A stretch of 29,013 nucleotides of DNA from a virus (IMGVR_UViG_3300020731_000064:1-29013), one strand, 5' to 3'; shown: positions 20,334 to 27,036, numbered from the stretch's first letter. Made by a program: numbers and translations. The notes: a model not told the origin generated them from the sequence alone.

Positions 20334-20363
20334 TTTTCAACAACTAACCAAGGAAAACACACT

Positions 20364-20672
20364 ATGTATTCACAATTCAAAACCCTTGAAAATCTAATCG
20401 ATTACCACCTTACCAGTGAACAAACCATGTTCCTTTGCGACTTGACCGGCCTAAGTGTTGACGATCGCGACTTTGACTCGCTTCAAGCGTGGTTTGACCA
20501 AAACGATCCGTTTTATAAATCGGCTTGGGCAATGCGCTCGGGCGGGTCTTTTGCGGGTCATATCGCCGATGCTTACATGGTCGCCGACTCTCACAACCGC
20601 TTGATCTTAATCAACGCCTTCCAAGACCTATTCAAGCGCTTTATGCCCACTAGTGTGACTGAAGAGGCTTGA
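20364..20672 (+). CDS. First gene of the ribozyme island, unknown function
   Basis: A 102-residue protein starting MYSQFKTLENLIDYHLTSEQ; the ATG has AAGGA upstream, and the frame's upstream extension has no ribosome site. It is predominantly helical with FDQNDPFYKSAWAMRSGGSF in the middle. Its last codons (Thr-Ser-Val-Thr-Glu-Glu-Ala-stop) are part of the first hammerhead ribozyme: Ser-Val lies in stem I, Thr-Glu-Glu in the catalytic core, and the TGA stop in loop II. It would be the 5' end of the processed transcript. Confidence 0.75.
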   Translation: MYSQFKTLENLIDYHLTSEQTMFLCDLTGLSVDDRDFDSLQAWFDQNDPFYKSAWAMRSGGSFAGHIADAYMVADSHNRLILINAFQDLFKRFMPTSVTEEA

Positions 20673-20704
20673 TGAGCCGAAACCGGCGAGAGCCGGTCTC
20701 ACAC
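20653..20704 (+). ncRNA. Type I hammerhead ribozyme 1
   Basis: Stem I GTGTGA (20653-20658) pairs with TCACAC (20699-20704). The core CTGAAGA follows (position 7 is A, a tolerated position). Stem II GGCT/AGCC has loop TGATG. GAAA follows, then stem III CCGGC/GCCGG with a GAGA tetraloop (GNRA), and TC closes the GUC site. Cleavage would fall between 20698 and 20699, leaving a 23-nt leader on the next message. The 5' half overlaps the end of the upstream gene. Confidence 0.92.
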
Positions 20705-20721
20705 AACTACTAAGGAAACCA

Positions 20722-21171
20722 ATGAAAAACGAAATCATCTCAGCCCTTCACACCTTTGCACACAAACGCCCACAACTTGAATGGCGCAATTACGGCGACT
20801 CATCCAGTTACCGCGCGGAGGCGCGCTCTATTACAAGAGACTTGCAACACGCACGCGCCCTTCTTCGCAAAGTAGAGGTATCGGGTATCACCGCTCAAGA
20901 TTTGATCAAGGCGAGCTCTGAGGCGTTTTCAGGTCGGTTAACGATTATGCCCGCCAACTCTTACAACGACGAAATTCGAATCGACTACTGCACTGGGCAA
21001 TACTTCGCGACCGAGTACCGCAAAGCAGTTTGCGCAGTATTGGCTCGCGCGCTCTGGAATCATTGGAGAGAAGACCGCAAAGACGGCGCCATCATGACAT
21101 CCGGACAACAACTCCGCGCGATAGCCCGCTCAGAGCTTGGCGCGTCATTGGCGAGAATTTATTTTGGATGA
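20722..21171 (+). CDS. Unknown conserved phage/plasmid-type protein
   Basis: A 149-residue protein. It contains RPQLEWRNYGDSSSYRAEAR, then RDLQHARALLRKVEV and IDYCTGQYFATEYRKAVCAV, followed by ALWNHWREDRKDG. I recall similar proteins in phages and plasmids without known function. AAGGAA precedes the ATG, and the whole leader is created by cleavage of hammerhead 1. The stop codon lies directly before stem I of hammerhead 2 (21172). Confidence 0.75.
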   Translation: MKNEIISALHTFAHKRPQLEWRNYGDSSSYRAEARSITRDLQHARALLRKVEVSGITAQDLIKASSEAFSGRLTIMPANSYNDEIRIDYCTGQYFATEYRKAVCAVLARALWNHWREDRKDGAIMTSGQQLRAIARSELGASLARIYFG

Positions 21172-21221
21172 GCATAACTGATGAGGCTTGATGAGCCGAA
21201 ACCCCTGCGGGGGTCTTATGC
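21172..21221 (+). ncRNA. Type I hammerhead ribozyme 2
   Basis: Stem I GCATAA (21172-21177) pairs with TTATGC (21216-21221). The core is the standard CTGATGA. Stem II GGCT/AGCC has loop TGATG, then GAAA. Stem III CCCC/GGGG is closed by a TGCG tetraloop (UNCG type). TC ends the GUC site and cleavage would be between 21215 and 21216. Stem I begins one base after the upstream stop codon and the next start is 26 nt after the cut. Confidence 0.95.
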
Positions 21222-21241
21222 AACAACAAGGAAACAAAACC

Positions 21242-21889
21242 ATGCGAGTAATTATGTTGAAAAAAGAGGCGAGCGCGCTCACTGGTGGGCTCACCGAAAC
21301 CTCTAAGATGCCGTGCAATTCCTACAGTCTACCGACCGAGGCGTGCGCGACCGGTTTCAAAATGGCTCAAATTGAGGGATCGATCTGTTTTTACTGCTAC
21401 GCTAATTCCGGCTTTTACCTGCTTTATCAAAACACAATAAAACCCGCCCAATTCGCGCGCCTTGATTCAATTAATGATCCCCATTGGGTGGACGCAATGG
21501 TCACTCTAATTGGCGTCGACCCTTATTTTAGGTGGCACGACTCCGGCGACCTTCAGGGGCTCGAGCACTTCAAGAAAATTGTTGAGGTAGCACAATTGAC
21601 GCCAAAAACAAAACACTGGCTACCGACCCGTGAATACTCAATCATTAGGGATTTTATCTCAGCCGGTGGAGTAATCCCCAAAAACCTCATTGTCCGGCTC
21701 TCGGGTATGTATCCTGACAAGGCCGTGAAGGTACCCAAGAGCCTCGAAGGCGTGCGAGGCGTGACAACGTCCAACGTCCACACAAAAAAGCCCTTGGGGC
21801 TCGCCTGTAAAGCCCCAGAGCAAGCCGGCGAGTGTCGCGACTGTCGCGCTTGTTGGACTTCGAAACCGGTATCGTGTTTGATGCATTAG
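21242..21889 (+). CDS. Gp88-family protein
   Basis: A 215-residue protein of the family named after a mycobacteriophage 'gene product 88'. The pattern is KMPCNSYSLPTEACATG, CFYCYANSGFYLLYQNT, WVDAMVTLIG, FRWHDSGDL, HWLPTREYS, then NLIVRLSGMYPD, and a Cys-rich end (CRDCRACW). The Cys residues suggest an iron-sulfur or zinc centre. Biochemical function is unknown. I chose ATG 21242 because AAGGAA lies 8 bases upstream; the frame extends back through the ribozyme, which is not translated in my reading. Confidence 0.85.
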   Translation: MRVIMLKKEASALTGGLTETSKMPCNSYSLPTEACATGFKMAQIEGSICFYCYANSGFYLLYQNTIKPAQFARLDSINDPHWVDAMVTLIGVDPYFRWHDSGDLQGLEHFKKIVEVAQLTPKTKHWLPTREYSIIRDFISAGGVIPKNLIVRLSGMYPDKAVKVPKSLEGVRGVTTSNVHTKKPLGLACKAPEQAGECRDCRACWTSKPVSCLMH

Positions 21890-21940
21890 CATGACTGATG
21901 AGGCCTGAGAGGCCGAAACCCGAGCGATCGGGTCTCATGC
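21889..21940 (+). ncRNA. Type I hammerhead ribozyme 3
   Basis: Stem I GCATGA (21889-21894) pairs with TCATGC (21935-21940). Core CTGATGA, stem II GGCC/GGCC with loop TGAGA, GAAA, and stem III CCCGA/TCGGG with GCGA tetraloop. Cleavage after TC is between 21934 and 21935. The first base of stem I is the last base of the upstream TAG stop. The cut leaves a 22-nt leader with AAGGGAA. Stem I and III differ from the other copies yet keep pairing, a covariation pattern. Confidence 0.95.
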
Positions 21941-21956
21941 AACTACAAGGGAAATT

Positions 21957-22142
21957 ATGAAATACGAAATATGGTTAGACAATGGTGTATCAACGATTTT
22001 TGAGTATTTATCTGATGATTTATCTGATGTGCTAGACGCGTTTTGTAAAGAAGCAGGTTATATCGACCAAGCACATTATGTATCTCAATTTAATTTAACG
22101 GATAGTCCTTTTAACATTAAAAGCATAACCGATGAGTCCTGA
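21957..22142 (+). CDS. Small acidic hypothetical protein
   Basis: A 61-residue acidic protein starting MKYEIWLDNGVSTIFEYLSD. It has an alternating beta start and a helical middle (VLDAFCKEAGYID). Not recognised. Its last six codons (Ser-Ile-Thr-Asp-Glu-Ser) and stop lie in the 5' part of hammerhead 4: stem I reads through Ser-Ile, the core through Thr-Asp-Glu, and the TGA stop lies in loop II. AAGGGAA precedes the ATG. Confidence 0.7.
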   Translation: MKYEIWLDNGVSTIFEYLSDDLSDVLDAFCKEAGYIDQAHYVSQFNLTDSPFNIKSITDES

Positions 22143-22172
22143 TTGGACGAAACCCCGAGAGGGGTCTTATGC
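22123..22172 (+). ncRNA. Type I hammerhead ribozyme 4 with variant core
   Basis: Stem I GCATAA (22123-22128) pairs with TTATGC (22167-22172). The core reads CCGATGA, with C where the conserved U4 is expected, which may weaken or abolish activity. Stem II GTCC/GGAC has loop TGATT, then GAAA; stem III is CCCC/GGGG with a GAGA tetraloop. Cleavage, if it happens, is between 22166 and 22167, 22 nt before the next start. It overlaps the end of the upstream gene. Confidence 0.8.
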
Positions 22173-22188
22173 AACTACAAAGGAAATT

Positions 22189-22356
22189 ATGAAATATTCC
22201 GAATTTGACTATATCCAAGCCGGTTATCTATTTGAGAAAAACCGCATTAAGCTCGCACGATTTGAGCGTATGCTCGCGCGCGAATATCAGGAACACAAAA
22301 ACAAGGCGGTCTTTTTATTCAACCGCGGTCGATTGGAGGCGCGCTCATGTATCTAG
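22189..22356 (+). CDS. Small hypothetical protein
   Basis: A 55-residue basic, helical protein (MKYSEFDYIQAGYLFEKNRI, then ERMLAREYQEHKNKAVFLFN). AAAGGAA precedes the ATG at 22189; an in-frame ATG within the ribozyme is rejected because it would lack a ribosome site after cleavage. The end overlaps the next gene's start by 10 bases, so translation is coupled. No recognisable domain. Confidence 0.65.
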   Translation: MKYSEFDYIQAGYLFEKNRIKLARFERMLAREYQEHKNKAVFLFNRGRLEARSCI

Positions 22357-22529
22357 TTTTTAACCACAATTTTCGCTTTTTGGGCGAGTTTAAAACCATG
22401 CACGAGGCTCAATCCGAGGCCGTGCTTTATATTGGGCAGACCGGCAACCCCGCGCACGTCACAACGCCCAACTTGTTGACAACCGCCGAGCGCGACTCAT
22501 ACGATCAATTTTTGGAGATACACGAATGA
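22347..22529 (+). CDS. Small hypothetical protein
   Basis: A 60-residue protein (MYLVFNHNFRFLGEFKTMHE, then LTTAERDSYDQFLEIHE) overlapping the genes on both sides (10 bases before, ATGA after). No ribozyme separates these genes, unlike the earlier ones. The coding sequence contains one 10-mer followed by AC, giving CAACTTGTTGACA (22469-22481), whose TTGACA with TACGAT 18 bases on could be a weak internal promoter. Confidence 0.65.
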   Translation: MYLVFNHNFRFLGEFKTMHEAQSEAVLYIGQTGNPAHVTTPNLLTTAERDSYDQFLEIHE

Positions 22530-22765
22530 CAACTATAGCAACAAAATACAACTGGGTATTGGTGGACAAGGACGGCGTGGCAGTCCCCAAGGGCGCGATC
22601 ATACGAACCCGCAGGGGTGAAGACTACGAACTCACTGGGGGGCAACCCCCACACCATGAGGGCTCAACTGGGCGCGTTTACGTCAAGGAAGTGGGCGCGG
22701 CGGAGGACGACTGGGGGCGAGAATTTTTCCCGACAGTTTTTGATCTGAAGTGGGAAACAGTCTAA
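22526..22765 (+). CDS. Small conserved phage protein
   Basis: A 79-residue protein with VLVDKDGVAVPKGAIIRTRR, then GQPPHHEGSTGRVYVKE. This GxxPPHxxxSxGRVYV pattern occurs in small proteins of many phages and plasmids (family recalled, no function known). The start overlaps the upstream stop (ATGA). The TAA stop directly abuts hammerhead 5. Confidence 0.75.
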   Translation: MTTIATKYNWVLVDKDGVAVPKGAIIRTRRGEDYELTGGQPPHHEGSTGRVYVKEVGAAEDDWGREFFPTVFDLKWETV

Positions 22766-22814
22766 GCACAACTGACGAGCCCTAATGGGCGAAACCCCGC
22801 AAGGGGTCTTGTGC
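22766..22814 (+). ncRNA. Type I hammerhead ribozyme 5
   Basis: Stem I GCACAA (22766-22771) pairs with TTGTGC (22809-22814), a compensatory change from the GCATAA/TTATGC of copies 2 and 4. The core CTGACGA has C at the free position 7. Stem II is GCCC/GGGC with loop TAAT, followed by GAAA. Stem III is CCCC/GGGG with a GCAA tetraloop. Cleavage is between 22808 and 22809, leaving a 25-nt leader with AGGAGG before the ATG at 22834. Confidence 0.95.
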
Positions 22815-22833: not shown

Positions 22834-23070
22834 ATGGCACGATTAATTAAGACTGAGAAACAATGGGTTATCCGCGACGAATGGAGCGAGGACGATATCA
22901 CCGACCAGTGCGAGCAGATCGGCGAGGAGCTCACCCTCGAGGAAACCCGCAAAGTGTTGGAGATCATCGTCAAATCACACGATGCCGAGATTGGCATTAA
23001 CTGGAATTCAATCAACTCAGCAATTGATGAGGTCTTGATGCTACGCGATCAAGAGGCCGAAAGGGATTAA
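22834..23070 (+). CDS. Small acidic hypothetical protein
   Basis: A 78-residue protein (MARLIKTEKQWVIRDEWSED, then LEETRKVLEIIVKSHDAEIG). It follows hammerhead 5 and has the strong AGGAGG ribosome site of its 25-nt leader. Helical and acidic, with no known domain. The next gene starts 4 bases after its stop. Confidence 0.65.
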   Translation: MARLIKTEKQWVIRDEWSEDDITDQCEQIGEELTLEETRKVLEIIVKSHDAEIGINWNSINSAIDEVLMLRDQEAERD

Positions 23071-23073
23071 AAA

Positions 23074-23403
23074 ATGACTTGTTCAAAATGTAACTCACCT
23101 ACAAGTAACACTTGGGATTGTGAATGCCAGTATGAAAAGGTAGACCCAATGCTACGGGCTAAGATTTTAGCCAAACTAACACCGCAAGAACTCGATCCAG
23201 AAATGTACTCTGATTCGGACACATGGGGCTCAACTGAGGTCGATGGGGTTATGTATGACCTTAATTTTTGGTTTGATGACGATAAATTCAATATCACCGC
23301 TTACTTTTTAACCGAAGAAGATGGTGTTGTTGTCACGGATAACTGTAGATTTTTTAGGATTTTATCTAAAACTGTCAAGGTAATAGACGAGGAGAATGAA
23401 TAA
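23074..23403 (+). CDS. Small zinc-binding-type hypothetical protein
   Basis: A 109-residue acidic protein. The N-terminus has a four-Cys site (TCSKCN and WDCECQ) typical of a zinc ribbon or knuckle. The rest is mixed (DLNFWFDDDKFNITAYFLTE). Start at ATG 23074, 4 bases after the previous stop; the end overlaps the next start (TAATG). Function unknown. Confidence 0.65.
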   Translation: MTCSKCNSPTSNTWDCECQYEKVDPMLRAKILAKLTPQELDPEMYSDSDTWGSTEVDGVMYDLNFWFDDDKFNITAYFLTEEDGVVVTDNCRFFRILSKTVKVIDEENE

Positions 23404-23597
23404 TGAACAGAGAAGCAATTGACCAAGCATTTTTTGAGATGTATCGCGGATCTATTTCTGAGTGCGATGACGAAACAATTTTGCGCTTTTTGAAGGATAA
23501 CGAATCAGTAGATAGTTTTGAAGGATATACACATTTGATGGATACCTATATTGCATTCGAGGCCGGTATTAAATACGCAAGGGAAAATCCAATATGA
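23403..23597 (+). CDS. Small hypothetical protein
   Basis: A 64-residue acidic helical protein (MNREAIDQAFFEMYRGSISE, then LMDTYIAFEAGIKYARE). The start overlaps the upstream stop (TAATG) and the end overlaps the next start (ATGA). Its upstream gene ends GAGGAGAATGAA, which holds the GAGGAG ribosome site. Not recognised. Confidence 0.6.
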   Translation: MNREAIDQAFFEMYRGSISECDDETILRFLKDNESVDSFEGYTHLMDTYIAFEAGIKYARENPI

Positions 23598-23716
23598 CTG
23601 CACAAGAACTATACGAGGCCTTAGAAAAAGCCGGCATTGACTTTGAGGTTGTCGAGATATTCGAAGGATGCCGGTGGCTTAGATTTGACGTTGAAGAACA
23701 GGAGAATGAAGAATGA
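23594..23716 (+). CDS. Very small hypothetical protein
   Basis: A 40-residue protein, MTAQELYEALEKAGIDFEVV and then EIFEGCRWLRFDVEEQENEE. The start overlaps the upstream stop (ATGA) and its end, CAGGAGAATGAAGAATGA, both gives a ribosome site and overlaps the next start. The phase and overlaps on both sides argue for a real gene despite the size. Confidence 0.6.
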   Translation: MTAQELYEALEKAGIDFEVVEIFEGCRWLRFDVEEQENEE

Positions 23717-23856
23717 TAACCATATTTTTTGAGATCGATGGCCACGTCTTTGAGTCGGCCACATTTGCCAACGAGGGACTTTATATTGCGTGCTACGGAG
23801 CTCTTGAGCACTATGCTCGCCTCAACAACTTTGACATGACGGAGGTGGTGACATGA
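23713..23856 (+). CDS. Very small hypothetical protein
   Basis: A 47-residue protein, MITIFFEIDGHVFESATFAN and then EGLYIACYGALEHYARLNNF, with coding overlap at its start (ATGA) and a GGAG site upstream. Not recognised. It is followed by a TTG-start frame. Confidence 0.6.
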   Translation: MITIFFEIDGHVFESATFANEGLYIACYGALEHYARLNNFDMTEVVT

Positions 23857-24027: not shown

Positions 24028-24739
24028 AATCCTCCCCCTCTTCACCTACCCAGTAGCAAGAGGCTATTTTTTGGGCGGTACTCAGGCCGACAGGGTCGTT
24101 GTCCGCAACAACAAGAGGCTCATTTAAGGATTTCGCGATCTCAAGCATATTGGAGGCCGAGAAACAAACGTGTATCTTGTACCTCGCTTTCATTAATTTG
24201 AGAGCCCTGCGCACCGATAAACCGGTCGCGTAGCCCTCCACCAGTATGTCTCGCCCCTTATTGTCGATCACGAGGCTTGCGCCCTTGGTGATCTGCCCCG
24301 ACAGGAACTTTTTGTTGCCGTCTTTATCGATCATCTGGCATCCAACAAGTTGACCCCCCACCCGCATTGTGACCACGAGCAACTCTTTCCACACGAGGCC
24401 TCGATCGGTGAAACCCTTTCGAATTAAGTATGGATGGGTTGACAAGACGCCTGACTTGACAATGTAGACCGCCTTCCGGCGCGCCTCTTCCTGACGATCT
24501 AACCGCTCTTGATTGACTCGAGCGATCTTTGAATGATCGATCACATAAGGCTTATCGGACTTAAATATGGCGTGTTTTTCCATGGTAGCAAAGTTGATGA
24601 CCGCCCCACCCTGTCCATCAAAGACATAGGCGCCGTTCAACTTGTTGGGTTTATCCAAAGTCTTGACTCGAATCCACTTATCAAGAGACAGATTGTCGAT
24701 CACGAGGCCGTGTTCGTAAGCAAATTCCTCGAATCTCAT
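23963..24739 (-). CDS. Toprim-domain DNA primase
   Basis: A 258-residue protein of the phage/plasmid Toprim primase type. The N-terminal part (YVFDGQGGAVINFATMEKH) and YLIRKGFTDRGLVW resemble phage primase-like proteins. The C-terminal Toprim domain has DILVEGYATGLSVRRAL with catalytic Glu168 and VVADNDPVG with Asp213/Asp215. It would make RNA primers with the adjacent helicase. The start overlaps the helicase stop by ATGA, so they are translated together. A zinc-finger region typical of DnaG is not seen, so the protein is a short form. Confidence 0.85.
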   Translation of the reverse strand: MRFEEFAYEHGLVIDNLSLDKWIRVKTLDKPNKLNGAYVFDGQGGAVINFATMEKHAIFKSDKPYVIDHSKIARVNQERLDRQEEARRKAVYIVKSGVLSTHPYLIRKGFTDRGLVWKELLVVTMRVGGQLVGCQMIDKDGNKKFLSGQITKGASLVIDNKGRDILVEGYATGLSVRRALKLMKARYKIHVCFSASNMLEIAKSLNEPLVVADNDPVGLSTAQKIASCYWVGEEGEDFNDFEARVGSQLAGESLVKML

Positions 24740-27036
24740 GCTTTTTGTTGGCTTTTAGCCCACGCTATTTGTCTCGATCTGATCCAGTTCACAGTCTTTT
24801 GTGTGACCGGTATCGGTGTTGGGTCACCGCGAGGCGGGAATGTACCGAATTTCTCTTTGTATTTGTGTGCTGCCCAACCATCTTTATACCCCCGCATACG
24901 AGAATAATACAATAATTCAGAGTAAAACGTCTTGTTGGCCACCGCCGTGGAATTCTGACTGGGAAATAGCTCTTGAAGTTCACCAGGTACGCTTGCAATC
25001 CCGCGAATCGGCCTGGTGTGCCCGCAGTGGACGCAATTGAGCTCGCCGGCCACCCACAACCCACCGCAGGCCGGACACTTCGAGTCTTTCTTCTCTTTTT
25101 CAGTCGGCTCTTTCTTTGCCTTCTCTCCATCTCCATTCTCGAGCTCCGTCACGCCCTCAGTGAAGAGTTTGTCCCAATCGTTTCTGAATCGAAGATAATT
25201 ACCAGAGTGATCCAACCACACGCCAAAGGTTTTGTTGGGTGCCGGACGCATGATCCTGCCCATTTGTTGGACGTGAGAGCTGAATGACTTGGAGAAAGGC
25301 CTCGCCGAGACCCCTATAAGCACGTCAGGGACGTCAAAACCGCGGGTGAGTATGTCTGTAGCTATGAGGCCATGAATGCTTGTATCGGGCTTGCCAAAGT
25401 CCTCAATGATTTCCCGCTTGTAATCGTCGTCTTCGAGGTAAGAGATCGACTTAAAGTTATACCCTTGTTTGGCAAATTGTTGCTCGAGGTCTCTGCCGTG
25501 GGCGACCCCCGCGCAGAACACGACAGTCTTTTTCGGTCCGCCAAAAATCTCATTGGTTTTCTTAATCCACTCTGTGACGATATCCCCTGTGATCTTCATG
25601 CCCCGCTCGGTCACTTGATCCTGCGACCACTCGCCGGCAACCTTGGTCACGCCAGTCATGTCAATCTCTTTTGAGATAAAGATTTTCATTGGCATCAGCC
25701 AACCATTGTCGATCAAACTCTCCGTGGAGCTCGCGCCAACAACATGGGAGTACACGTCGCCGAGCCCCGCGGTGAATGGCGTGGCGGTCAACCCTATCAC
25801 CCTGAGTTCTGGGTTTTCCTCGATGAATTTGACAACACTTCTACGTTGAACATGGCAATTGTGAACTAACTTTCCGTCAGCGAAATAAGAAGGATGTCCA
25901 CTGATTTGAAGGTTGTATACAGATACAGCGCTCGCTCGTTCGATATGCGATATATTGACCAACCGAGGGAAATAAGAAACTCCGTCTTCTTGTGATCCTG
26001 TTCCTTGCGCGCAAGTGTCGTGTGAGACTGGCCATCTATTTCTATTCCCATCATCAGAAAAGGATTTGCTAAGTCCAGCTTGTAGCAACTTGGATAGCCT
26101 GATTGCCGCCCCATTTTTGTGGTCACCGCATACTCCGACTCCCAGTTCTCCCCCAAGGCATGAAGTAGTGCCAATTGTGGCAAAGGCAGCAACTGCCCGT
26201 TCCCTCCACGTTTGATAGGTTTGTGCCGAATCTCGCGTAATTTTGCTTTCATTTTGAGGCGAGACTGATGATTGCTCATGGGGTTCTTTAATTTCTTGGA
26301 GCAAGATATTGAGCAACTGGTTTGCGTATTCCAATTCTGCTCCGGCATTGCTGAAACTATTTTCCCCATTTCGTTTAAATGAATCCAAGGTTTGAAGACC
26401 TTCCCACAACAAGCGCACGCCTTGGATGCCAAATGTATACGCTCCGATCTCCAATTCCCCCGCGGTTTTCCAGCCAAGCTCCGTAAAGAAGGGGTGATTT
26501 CCTGTGCATTCAGTGATTGTTCCATCGTCAAACTCCAGTCTGTATGTTTGTATGGCAGGTTTTATTGAGACAGCCTCAACGATACCAATACCACATTGAT
26601 TATATACAGCATCTCCACAACGCACAAGGTTAATGTTTTTAAGACCAAGTGGAGTCGCTATTTTGGTATCCGCAGTAAAACACTCATCGATGATGAGGTA
26701 ATCAAGATCAGGAAAGGTGTCGCGTTTCTCGAGGGTTTGGGCGGAGCATATTTGGATGCGCTCTGTTGGGCGGTAGCGCCAATGATCGGACTGCATGACG
26801 CCATGTTGAATCTGATACCGCGCAAGGCGTGTACTGGTTTGATTCACCAACACAATGCGATCCATCACCATCGCAACACGTTTGTATTGCTTGGCAATGT
26901 TCTGCATAAGTTGGATGGCGACCTCAGTCTTACCAAATCCTGTTGGAGCATAAAGCAGTTGAGCTCTATGTCCATCAAGAAAGCCCTGATTGATTTTTTC
27001 TACCACCTCAATCTGGTGGGGTCTTAGTTCTAGCAT
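24736..27036 (-). CDS. SF2 DEAD/DEAH-type helicase precursor with intein
   Basis: A 766-residue precursor. The helicase has Walker A APTGFGKT (30-37), motif II DE/CH (Asp117-Glu118, then Cys394-His395 after splicing), motif III GLTATPF (415-421) and motif VI QQMGRIMRP (590-598), with a zinc ribbon near 654-671 (CPACGG, CVHCGH). Removal of residues 119-393 would leave a 491-residue helicase similar to the RadD/YejH group. It pairs with the Toprim primase downstream. GGAG precedes the ATG at 27036. Splicing is needed for motif II to be whole, so the enzyme is inactive until the intein leaves. Confidence 0.9.
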   Translation of the reverse strand: MLELRPHQIEVVEKINQGFLDGHRAQLLYAPTGFGKTEVAIQLMQNIAKQYKRVAMVMDRIVLVNQTSTRLARYQIQHGVMQSDHWRYRPTERIQICSAQTLEKRDTFPDLDYLIIDECFTADTKIATPLGLKNINLVRCGDAVYNQCGIGIVEAVSIKPAIQTYRLEFDDGTITECTGNHPFFTELGWKTAGELEIGAYTFGIQGVRLLWEGLQTLDSFKRNGENSFSNAGAELEYANQLLNILLQEIKEPHEQSSVSPQNESKITRDSAQTYQTWRERAVAAFATIGTTSCLGGELGVGVCGDHKNGAAIRLSKLLQAGLSKSFSDDGNRNRWPVSHDTCAQGTGSQEDGVSYFPRLVNISHIERASAVSVYNLQISGHPSYFADGKLVHNCHVQRRSVVKFIEENPELRVIGLTATPFTAGLGDVYSHVVGASSTESLIDNGWLMPMKIFISKEIDMTGVTKVAGEWSQDQVTERGMKITGDIVTEWIKKTNEIFGGPKKTVVFCAGVAHGRDLEQQFAKQGYNFKSISYLEDDDYKREIIEDFGKPDTSIHGLIATDILTRGFDVPDVLIGVSARPFSKSFSSHVQQMGRIMRPAPNKTFGVWLDHSGNYLRFRNDWDKLFTEGVTELENGDGEKAKKEPTEKEKKDSKCPACGGLWVAGELNCVHCGHTRPIRGIASVPGELQELFPSQNSTAVANKTFYSELLYYSRMRGYKDGWAAHKYKEKFGTFPPRGDPTPIPVTQKTVNWIRSRQIAWAKSQQKA
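25858..26682 (-). mobile_element. Intein in helicase motif II
   Basis: Residues 119-393 of the helicase precursor (275 residues). Block A starts CFTADTKIATPLG with nucleophile Cys119. Block B is ECTGNHPFFTELGW with the expected T-x-x-H. Block F is VYNLQISGHPSYFADG, and block G ends KLVHN with His392-Asn393; the +1 residue is Cys394. No in-frame LAGLIDADG domain is present. The middle, about residues 200-365, has low domain character and is overprinted by another gene. The insertion splits the DECH box, a conserved and thus safe homing site. Confidence 0.92.
25866..26525 (-). CDS. Vsr/EDxHD-like homing endonuclease overprinted within the intein
   Basis: A 219-residue protein on the same strand as the helicase but in another frame, wholly inside the intein DNA. 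A zinc motif (CACC at 37-40 and CSISC at 71-75) is followed by KLDLANP, then GIEIDGQSH with Glu162, Asp164 and His168, QDHKK with Asp177, and FLISLGWSIYRISNE. This order is that of Vsr/DUF559-type (EDxHD) homing nucleases. GGAG lies 7 bases before the ATG at 26525, so it can be translated alone. It likely spreads the intein. Its last 20 codons overlap splicing blocks F and G. Confidence 0.85.
   Translation of the reverse strand: MEQSLNAQEITPSLRSLAGKPRGNWRSERIHLASKACACCGKVFKPWIHLNEMGKIVSAMPEQNWNTQTSCSISCSKKLKNPMSNHQSRLKMKAKLREIRHKPIKRGGNGQLLPLPQLALLHALGENWESEYAVTTKMGRQSGYPSCYKLDLANPFLMMGIEIDGQSHTTLARKEQDHKKTEFLISLGWSIYRISNERALYLYTTFKSVDILLISLTES

Follow-up and report, generated by a model that had tools for sequence, protein, structure and literature searches.

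Clustered hammerhead ribozymes in phage DNA are already known from the work of Perreault et al. 2011 (PMC3088659), who described prophage hammerheads flanking single genes and proposed that they process transcripts to gene-length messenger RNAs (mRNAs); a triple array was found to cleave both in vitro and in E. coli, and the examples include an array around ardA of Agrobacterium. A review (PMC6155905) likewise describes hammerheads lying close together and flanking small open reading frames (ORFs), notes the link to phages, and treats the role of prokaryotic hammerheads as an open question. The sequence studied here, the IMG/VR virus record IMGVR_UViG_3300020731_000064 (29,013 bases, referred to in its entirety as the window), carries a system of this kind, with five complete type I hammerheads at the gene junctions of a small-gene island that occupies approximately 20.36–23.86 kilobases (kb) on the plus strand. 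The original prediction for this sequence had taken phage hammerheads to be known as isolated copies, which the prophage clusters show to be wrong, and had regarded five in a row as unusually dense, which is not the maximum, since other phage contigs hold 7–9.

The resemblance to the prophage arrays lies in the presence of several hammerheads on the same strand of phage DNA, flanking single genes or short blocks of genes. The arrays of Perreault et al. are found in prophages of cultured bacteria, with three copies in the array that was tested, mixed types and frequent pseudoknots, whereas those described here occur in apparently lytic environmental phages as 4–9 copies of one compact type I fold that follow a fixed stop-cut-start rule, and they are nearly absent from 85,000 bacterial and archaeal genomes. 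The HHphage hammerhead of haloviruses HF1 and HF2 (PMC3088659) is also carried by a lytic virus; it sits 13 nucleotides (nt) ahead of a start codon, and a 5' end has been mapped close to its cut. It is, however, a single copy with core insertions, whereas the present copies have a standard core and form arrays. Rfam Hammerhead_1 (RF00163), HH9 (RF02275) and the Schistosoma and sTRSV hammerheads share with these copies the core, the three-stem topology, a stem I of 6 base pairs (bp) and the loop II contact with the base that follows position 1.6; the present family differs in having no looped stem I extension, in a contact that is mostly U(loop II):A1.7 and not A:U1.7, and in that all copies tested score below the Rfam gathering thresholds. 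In the early transcript of phage T7, RNase III sites cut the polycistronic message between genes, leaving 3' hairpins and fresh 5' leaders; cutting there is catalysed by a protein, whereas here the RNA itself would leave a 5'-OH and a 2',3'-cyclic phosphate, so that the likeness is one of working and not of membership. A retrozyme- or satellite-type circular element was also considered and rejected, as neighbouring stems differ and the units are ordinary double-stranded DNA phage ORFs. As far as open-licence papers without preprints show, what is new is the arrays of 4–9 in apparently lytic phages, the stop-cut-start rule, the compact fold with its swapped pair, the wide recurrence and the absence from Rfam annotation.

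A structural descriptor scan of the window returned exactly five type I hammerheads, all on the plus strand and all within the small-gene island, against a background of one match in total in 200 Markov shuffles of one strand. These are the following:

20653–20704 (+): hammerhead 1, stem I GTGTGA/TCACAC, core CTGAAGA at 20659, cut after 20698
21172–21221 (+): hammerhead 2, stem I GCATAA/TTATGC, core CTGATGA at 21178, cut after 21215
21889–21940 (+): hammerhead 3, stem I GCATGA/TCATGC, core CTGATGA at 21895, cut after 21934; its first base is overlapped by the TAG stop of gene C
22123–22172 (+): hammerhead 4, stem I GCATAA/TTATGC, variant core CCGATGA (U4C) at 22129, cut after 22166
22766–22814 (+): hammerhead 5, stem I GCACAA/TTGTGC, core CTGACGA at 22772, cut after 22808

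Each copy has a stem I of 6 bp, a stem II of 4–5 bp, a stem III of 5–6 bp and a GUC site, and the minimum-energy structure is the hammerhead for all five (z −2.8 to −4.6). The folds and pair counts give three helices around the core, with stem I open-ended and stems II and III closed by loops, as expected of type I, and the CUGANGA ... GAAA core with its NUH site is exact in copies 1, 2, 3 and 5, copy 4 carrying U4C. The cuts fall 23, 26, 22, 22 and 25 nt upstream of the following start codons for copies 1–5, respectively. These results agree exactly with the positions originally predicted, and with the prediction of a CTGANGA core with one variant, three stems, a GUC site and cuts 22–26 nt ahead of each start. 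A search for further or degraded hammerheads elsewhere in the window found none. The U4C substitution of hammerhead 4 (22129–22135) is also present in two relatives, L089 (at 4550) and L097 (at 4230), with the stem II loop altered in one of them, which suggests a tolerated or slower ribozyme under selection.

At gathering scores Rfam reports no hammerhead in the window, and none in 12 further loci that hold many of these ribozymes; sub-threshold matches of 24–27 bits were obtained for three of the five copies, the best of them scoring 27.5 bits with HH9, whose threshold is 52. A covariance model trained on 60 copies from contigs of other phages, none of them from the window or its close relatives, recovers exactly the five copies in the window and nothing else, at 64–70 bits and E values of about 1e-14 to 1e-15. 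The original prediction had staked itself on a covariance hit above threshold; to the letter, the lack of any such Rfam hit would refute it. Because a model that draws on neither the window nor its close relatives recovers all five, the Rfam misses reflect a limit of the homology models and not a chemical criterion of the hammerhead class. A family that lies under the Rfam thresholds is therefore probably unannotated in most phage genomes.

The stem covariation predicted from within this one genome is real and extends to 217 distinct copies across the phage family, in 203 of which stem I is exactly 6 bp. In a first set of 51 distinct copies, 99.9% of cells are paired (33–39% with partners slid), and two-sided changes across all three stems number 214 as compared with 55 ± 6.5 in shuffled data; the independent set of 60 copies from other phages gives 271 versus 76. 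A non-circular test that required only the core and stems II and III found stem I of exactly 6 bp in 50 of 50 distinct candidates. Similarly, a pattern scan that fixed AA and left the outer four stem I pairs unconstrained gave 134 distinct matches, with stem I of at least 6 bp in 133 and exactly 6 bp in 126. The near-obligatory pairs G10.1-C11.1 and A15.1-U16.1 are invariant in both sets (51/51 and 60/60), and H17 is C in all 51 copies of the first. Loops II and III are minimal and no sensor domain is added; the stem III hairpin is GC-rich, with a loop commonly of the GNRA type.

The last base of loop II covaries with the base 3' of stem I (position 1.7), the combinations being U:A in 159 copies, A:U in 24, G:C in 3, G:A in 23 and A:A in 6. 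The association holds at one copy per contig (Fisher p 7e-12), and several genomes hold more than one pair type. In crystal structures of full-length hammerheads, a loop II A and the U next to residue 1.6 form a conserved tertiary Hoogsteen pair (Chi et al. 2008, PMC2553840), and the covariation matches this known tertiary contact of fast hammerheads, mostly in swapped form (U:A in place of A:U). The covariation runs through the whole family, with U:A at window copies 4 and 5, and on this ground the copies would be fast, extended hammerheads in which stem I has no loop. Watson-Crick pairing of loop II with the 3' flank, as a pseudoknot of the type that Perreault et al. reported, did not rise above shuffled partners. 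The stems turn over fast and still pair almost perfectly, the core is nearly invariant and the tertiary positions covary, which together indicate that the family is under ongoing selection at the RNA level and that an RNA function is the selected one.

The position of the ribozymes relative to genes is equally regular. Among 215 distinct copies, 84% have a preceding gene whose stop codon falls within or next to stem I, together with a same-strand start 17–46 nt after the cut, as compared with 2.8% in the antisense orientation and 3.9% at random places. The leader between cut and start measures about 19–30 nt in general and is mostly 22–26 nt in the clade of the window and its nearer relatives, and the upstream stop may lie just before stem I, within it, in CUGA, or in loop II. 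With the stop in or beside the ribozyme and the start beyond the cut, cutting would leave both flanking frames whole.

Arrays recur widely among phages. Relatives of the window, for which 160 loci were fetched by searches with terminase and with the gene C product (GP88 family), carry arrays of 4–5 hammerheads in the same layout. A pattern of 20 fixed bases matched at least 120 stretches over IMG/VR and four stretches over 257 gigabases (85,000 bacterial and archaeal genomes), two of them on contigs of metagenome-assembled genomes with several copies. The largest arrays are found in unrelated phages and number 9 (a 51-kb contig; G056, L323) and 8–9 (L325), and L285 carries at least 7. The array-bearing phages are called apparently lytic because such copies are rare in host genomes and no obvious integrase turned up in the proteins that were scanned. 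Among isolates, one copy each is present in Pelagibacter phages HTVC019P, HTVC131P and Jormungand, Agrobacterium phage OLIVR1 and Flavobacterium phage elemoB, and Pelagivirus isolates with a single copy do encode integrase.

We propose that these are active compact type I hammerheads that serve as protein-free punctuation of the island transcript in a tailed phage, a reading to which we assign a probability of roughly three in four. It draws on the presence and sense orientation of the ribozymes, their structure and covariation, the tertiary pair of the family, the stop-cut-start rule and the recurrence across phages. Each hammerhead would fold during transcription, with help from the tertiary contact that joins loop II to the base following stem I, and would make a single cut between two genes. 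On the upstream side of the cut, the RNA would retain its stop codon and finish with the stem III hairpin and a 2',3'-cyclic phosphate, and the downstream piece would begin with a 5'-OH followed by a leader of 22–26 nt with its own ribosome-binding site. In bacterial RNA decay, RNase E prefers a 5'-monophosphate and 3' exonucleases prefer a free 3'-OH end, and for this reason both pieces should be relatively protected. One message with five cuts would give six units, translated and decaying independently without any host or phage RNase, and the benefit may lie in gene-by-gene control of stability and translation. The self-processing polycistron of the original prediction is the best-supported function, and its structural reading stands.

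Several points weigh against this proposal. Cleavage, like transcription from a single promoter, is deduced from the sequence; a promoter scan gave 5 sites where 5.1 were expected by chance, which leaves the single transcript an assumption. Window copies 1–3 have G:A or A:A at the tertiary contact, which is no standard pair and makes the contact uncertain in these copies. For copy 4, the U4C change in a viroid hammerhead lowers activity in vitro, the viroid still being infectious (PMC3088659). Finally, 49 long records of the terminase group include 18 with hammerhead matches and 31 without, and the function of the ribozymes is therefore dispensable.

Turnover of the island genes favors a different role, in which the hammerheads would be mainly DNA-level gene joints, that is, repeated boundaries of about 55 bp comprising stops, cut site and leader, across which the phage recombinase swaps small-gene cassettes. 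Sister phages differ in their small genes while the hammerhead boundaries persist, gene D and hammerhead 4 are present or absent as one block among relatives, collinearity breaks at hammerheads, and an ERF annealing recombinase is encoded by a relative. In 112 of 217 copies the first 40 nt hold a stop in each of the three frames, as compared with 8% of shuffles, an excess that is partly forced by the core (CUGA) and by the search pattern with its fixed AA. However, joints acting as DNA predict no base-pair covariation, no tertiary pair and no conserved catalytic core, and the breakpoints are confounded, as indels fall at gene borders anyway and gene borders and ribozymes coincide. We consider it improbable that this is the main role; the hammerheads may also serve as gene joints, and such use may be a by-product of the RNA function.

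Less probable still is that the hammerheads are regulated switches, in which a bound factor, or ribosomes passing through stem I and the core as they translate the upstream gene, would control each cut and so tune the neighboring genes. With the upstream stops inside the ribozyme or a few bases from it, a ribosome at termination would sit over stem I and part of the core. Against this, the stop positions differ among the window copies (−3, −2, +3, +7 and +17), the ribosome-binding site is outside stem I and is free before and after the cut, and loops II and III are minimal, with no sensor domain added. Hammerheads can ligate, and tandem type I copies do flank unit-length segments here, but the formation of circular RNAs of single-gene units by cleavage and ligation, as in retrozymes, is very unlikely, given that neighboring stem I sequences differ and unit ends pair poorly. 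Perreault et al. also sought circular products in their arrays and found none (PMC3088659). Equally unlikely, even with many related phages lacking hammerheads, are inactive relics or passively spread repeats without function, as the pairing, core and tertiary covariation need ongoing selection.

The strict stop-cut-start arrays in phage after phage make punctuation directly testable, and copies are present in isolates that can be grown, such as HTVC019P and OLIVR1. Synthetic biology could also take from the arrays a natural plan for splitting operons with ribozymes, and in this family the base pair of the hammerhead tertiary contact is mostly swapped. A wider proposal, that in many lytic phages arrays of this compact family, which escape present RNA annotation, form a general protein-free system that cuts accessory polycistrons into single-gene mRNAs with standardised ends, and that the same modules act as joints for cassette exchange, is tentative and we hold it to be somewhat doubtful.

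The units that the five cuts would define are as follows, with lengths in amino acids (aa):

20364–20672 (+): gene A (unit 1), 102 aa, TGA stop within hammerhead 1 (stem II)
20722–21171 (+): gene B (unit 2), 149 aa, start 23 nt past cut 1
21242–21889 (+): gene C (unit 3), 215 aa, Pfam GP88 family (E 6.9e-21), start 26 nt past cut 2
21957–22142 (+): gene D (unit 4), 61 aa, start 22 nt past cut 3, stop within hammerhead 4
22189–22765 (+): genes E, F and G (unit 5), 55, 60 and 79 aa, E start 22 nt past cut 4
22834–23856 (+): genes H onward (unit 6), small ORFs, H start 25 nt past cut 5

Genes E, F and G overlap at their junctions and have no ribozyme between them. A family search with gene A gave no match. 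As the first gene of the operon, gene A has a leader at 20340–20364 with the motif CAACTAACCAAGGAAAA, as in the post-hammerhead leaders of relatives, and no ribozyme lies ahead of it despite this motif. Between 20722 and 23400 the small genes turn over fast between sister phages, with collinear blocks of 80–93% identity broken by unrelated or inserted genes, and the island reads as a region of accessory-gene exchange.

The source is a freshwater tailed phage of approximately 60 kb. Close relatives are 58–60 kb long, and the window is for the most part collinear with one of them (60,480 bases); it therefore probably represents about half of one genome. The minus strand encodes structural proteins (terminase, portal, major head and tail fibre) and replication proteins (helicase, primase and a ParB-like protein). 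The closest isolates by terminase (HTVC027P, 023Pt_psg01 and DSL-LC04) have no hammerheads, and blastn of the island against isolated phages gave no match. In the Pelagivirus isolates (L315–L317), the genes for a MarR regulator, integrase and RNA polymerase lie downstream of the single hammerhead, and Jormungand has ardA nearby, a gene tied to hammerheads by Perreault et al. In the two large arrays at L323 4447–8719 and L325 534–4572, the leaders are A/U-rich, 20–24 nt long and without an obvious Shine-Dalgarno sequence, and in two copies of each a longer hairpin, common to both contigs, replaces stem III. The helicase gene of the window (24736–27036, minus strand) carries an intein (Pfam Intein_splicing), the ORF being 766 aa as compared with 491 aa in the 60-kb relative, and an ORF for a 221-aa DUF559/MTES_1575 endonuclease (25866–26531, minus strand) lies wholly within the intein-coding DNA, on the same strand in another frame.

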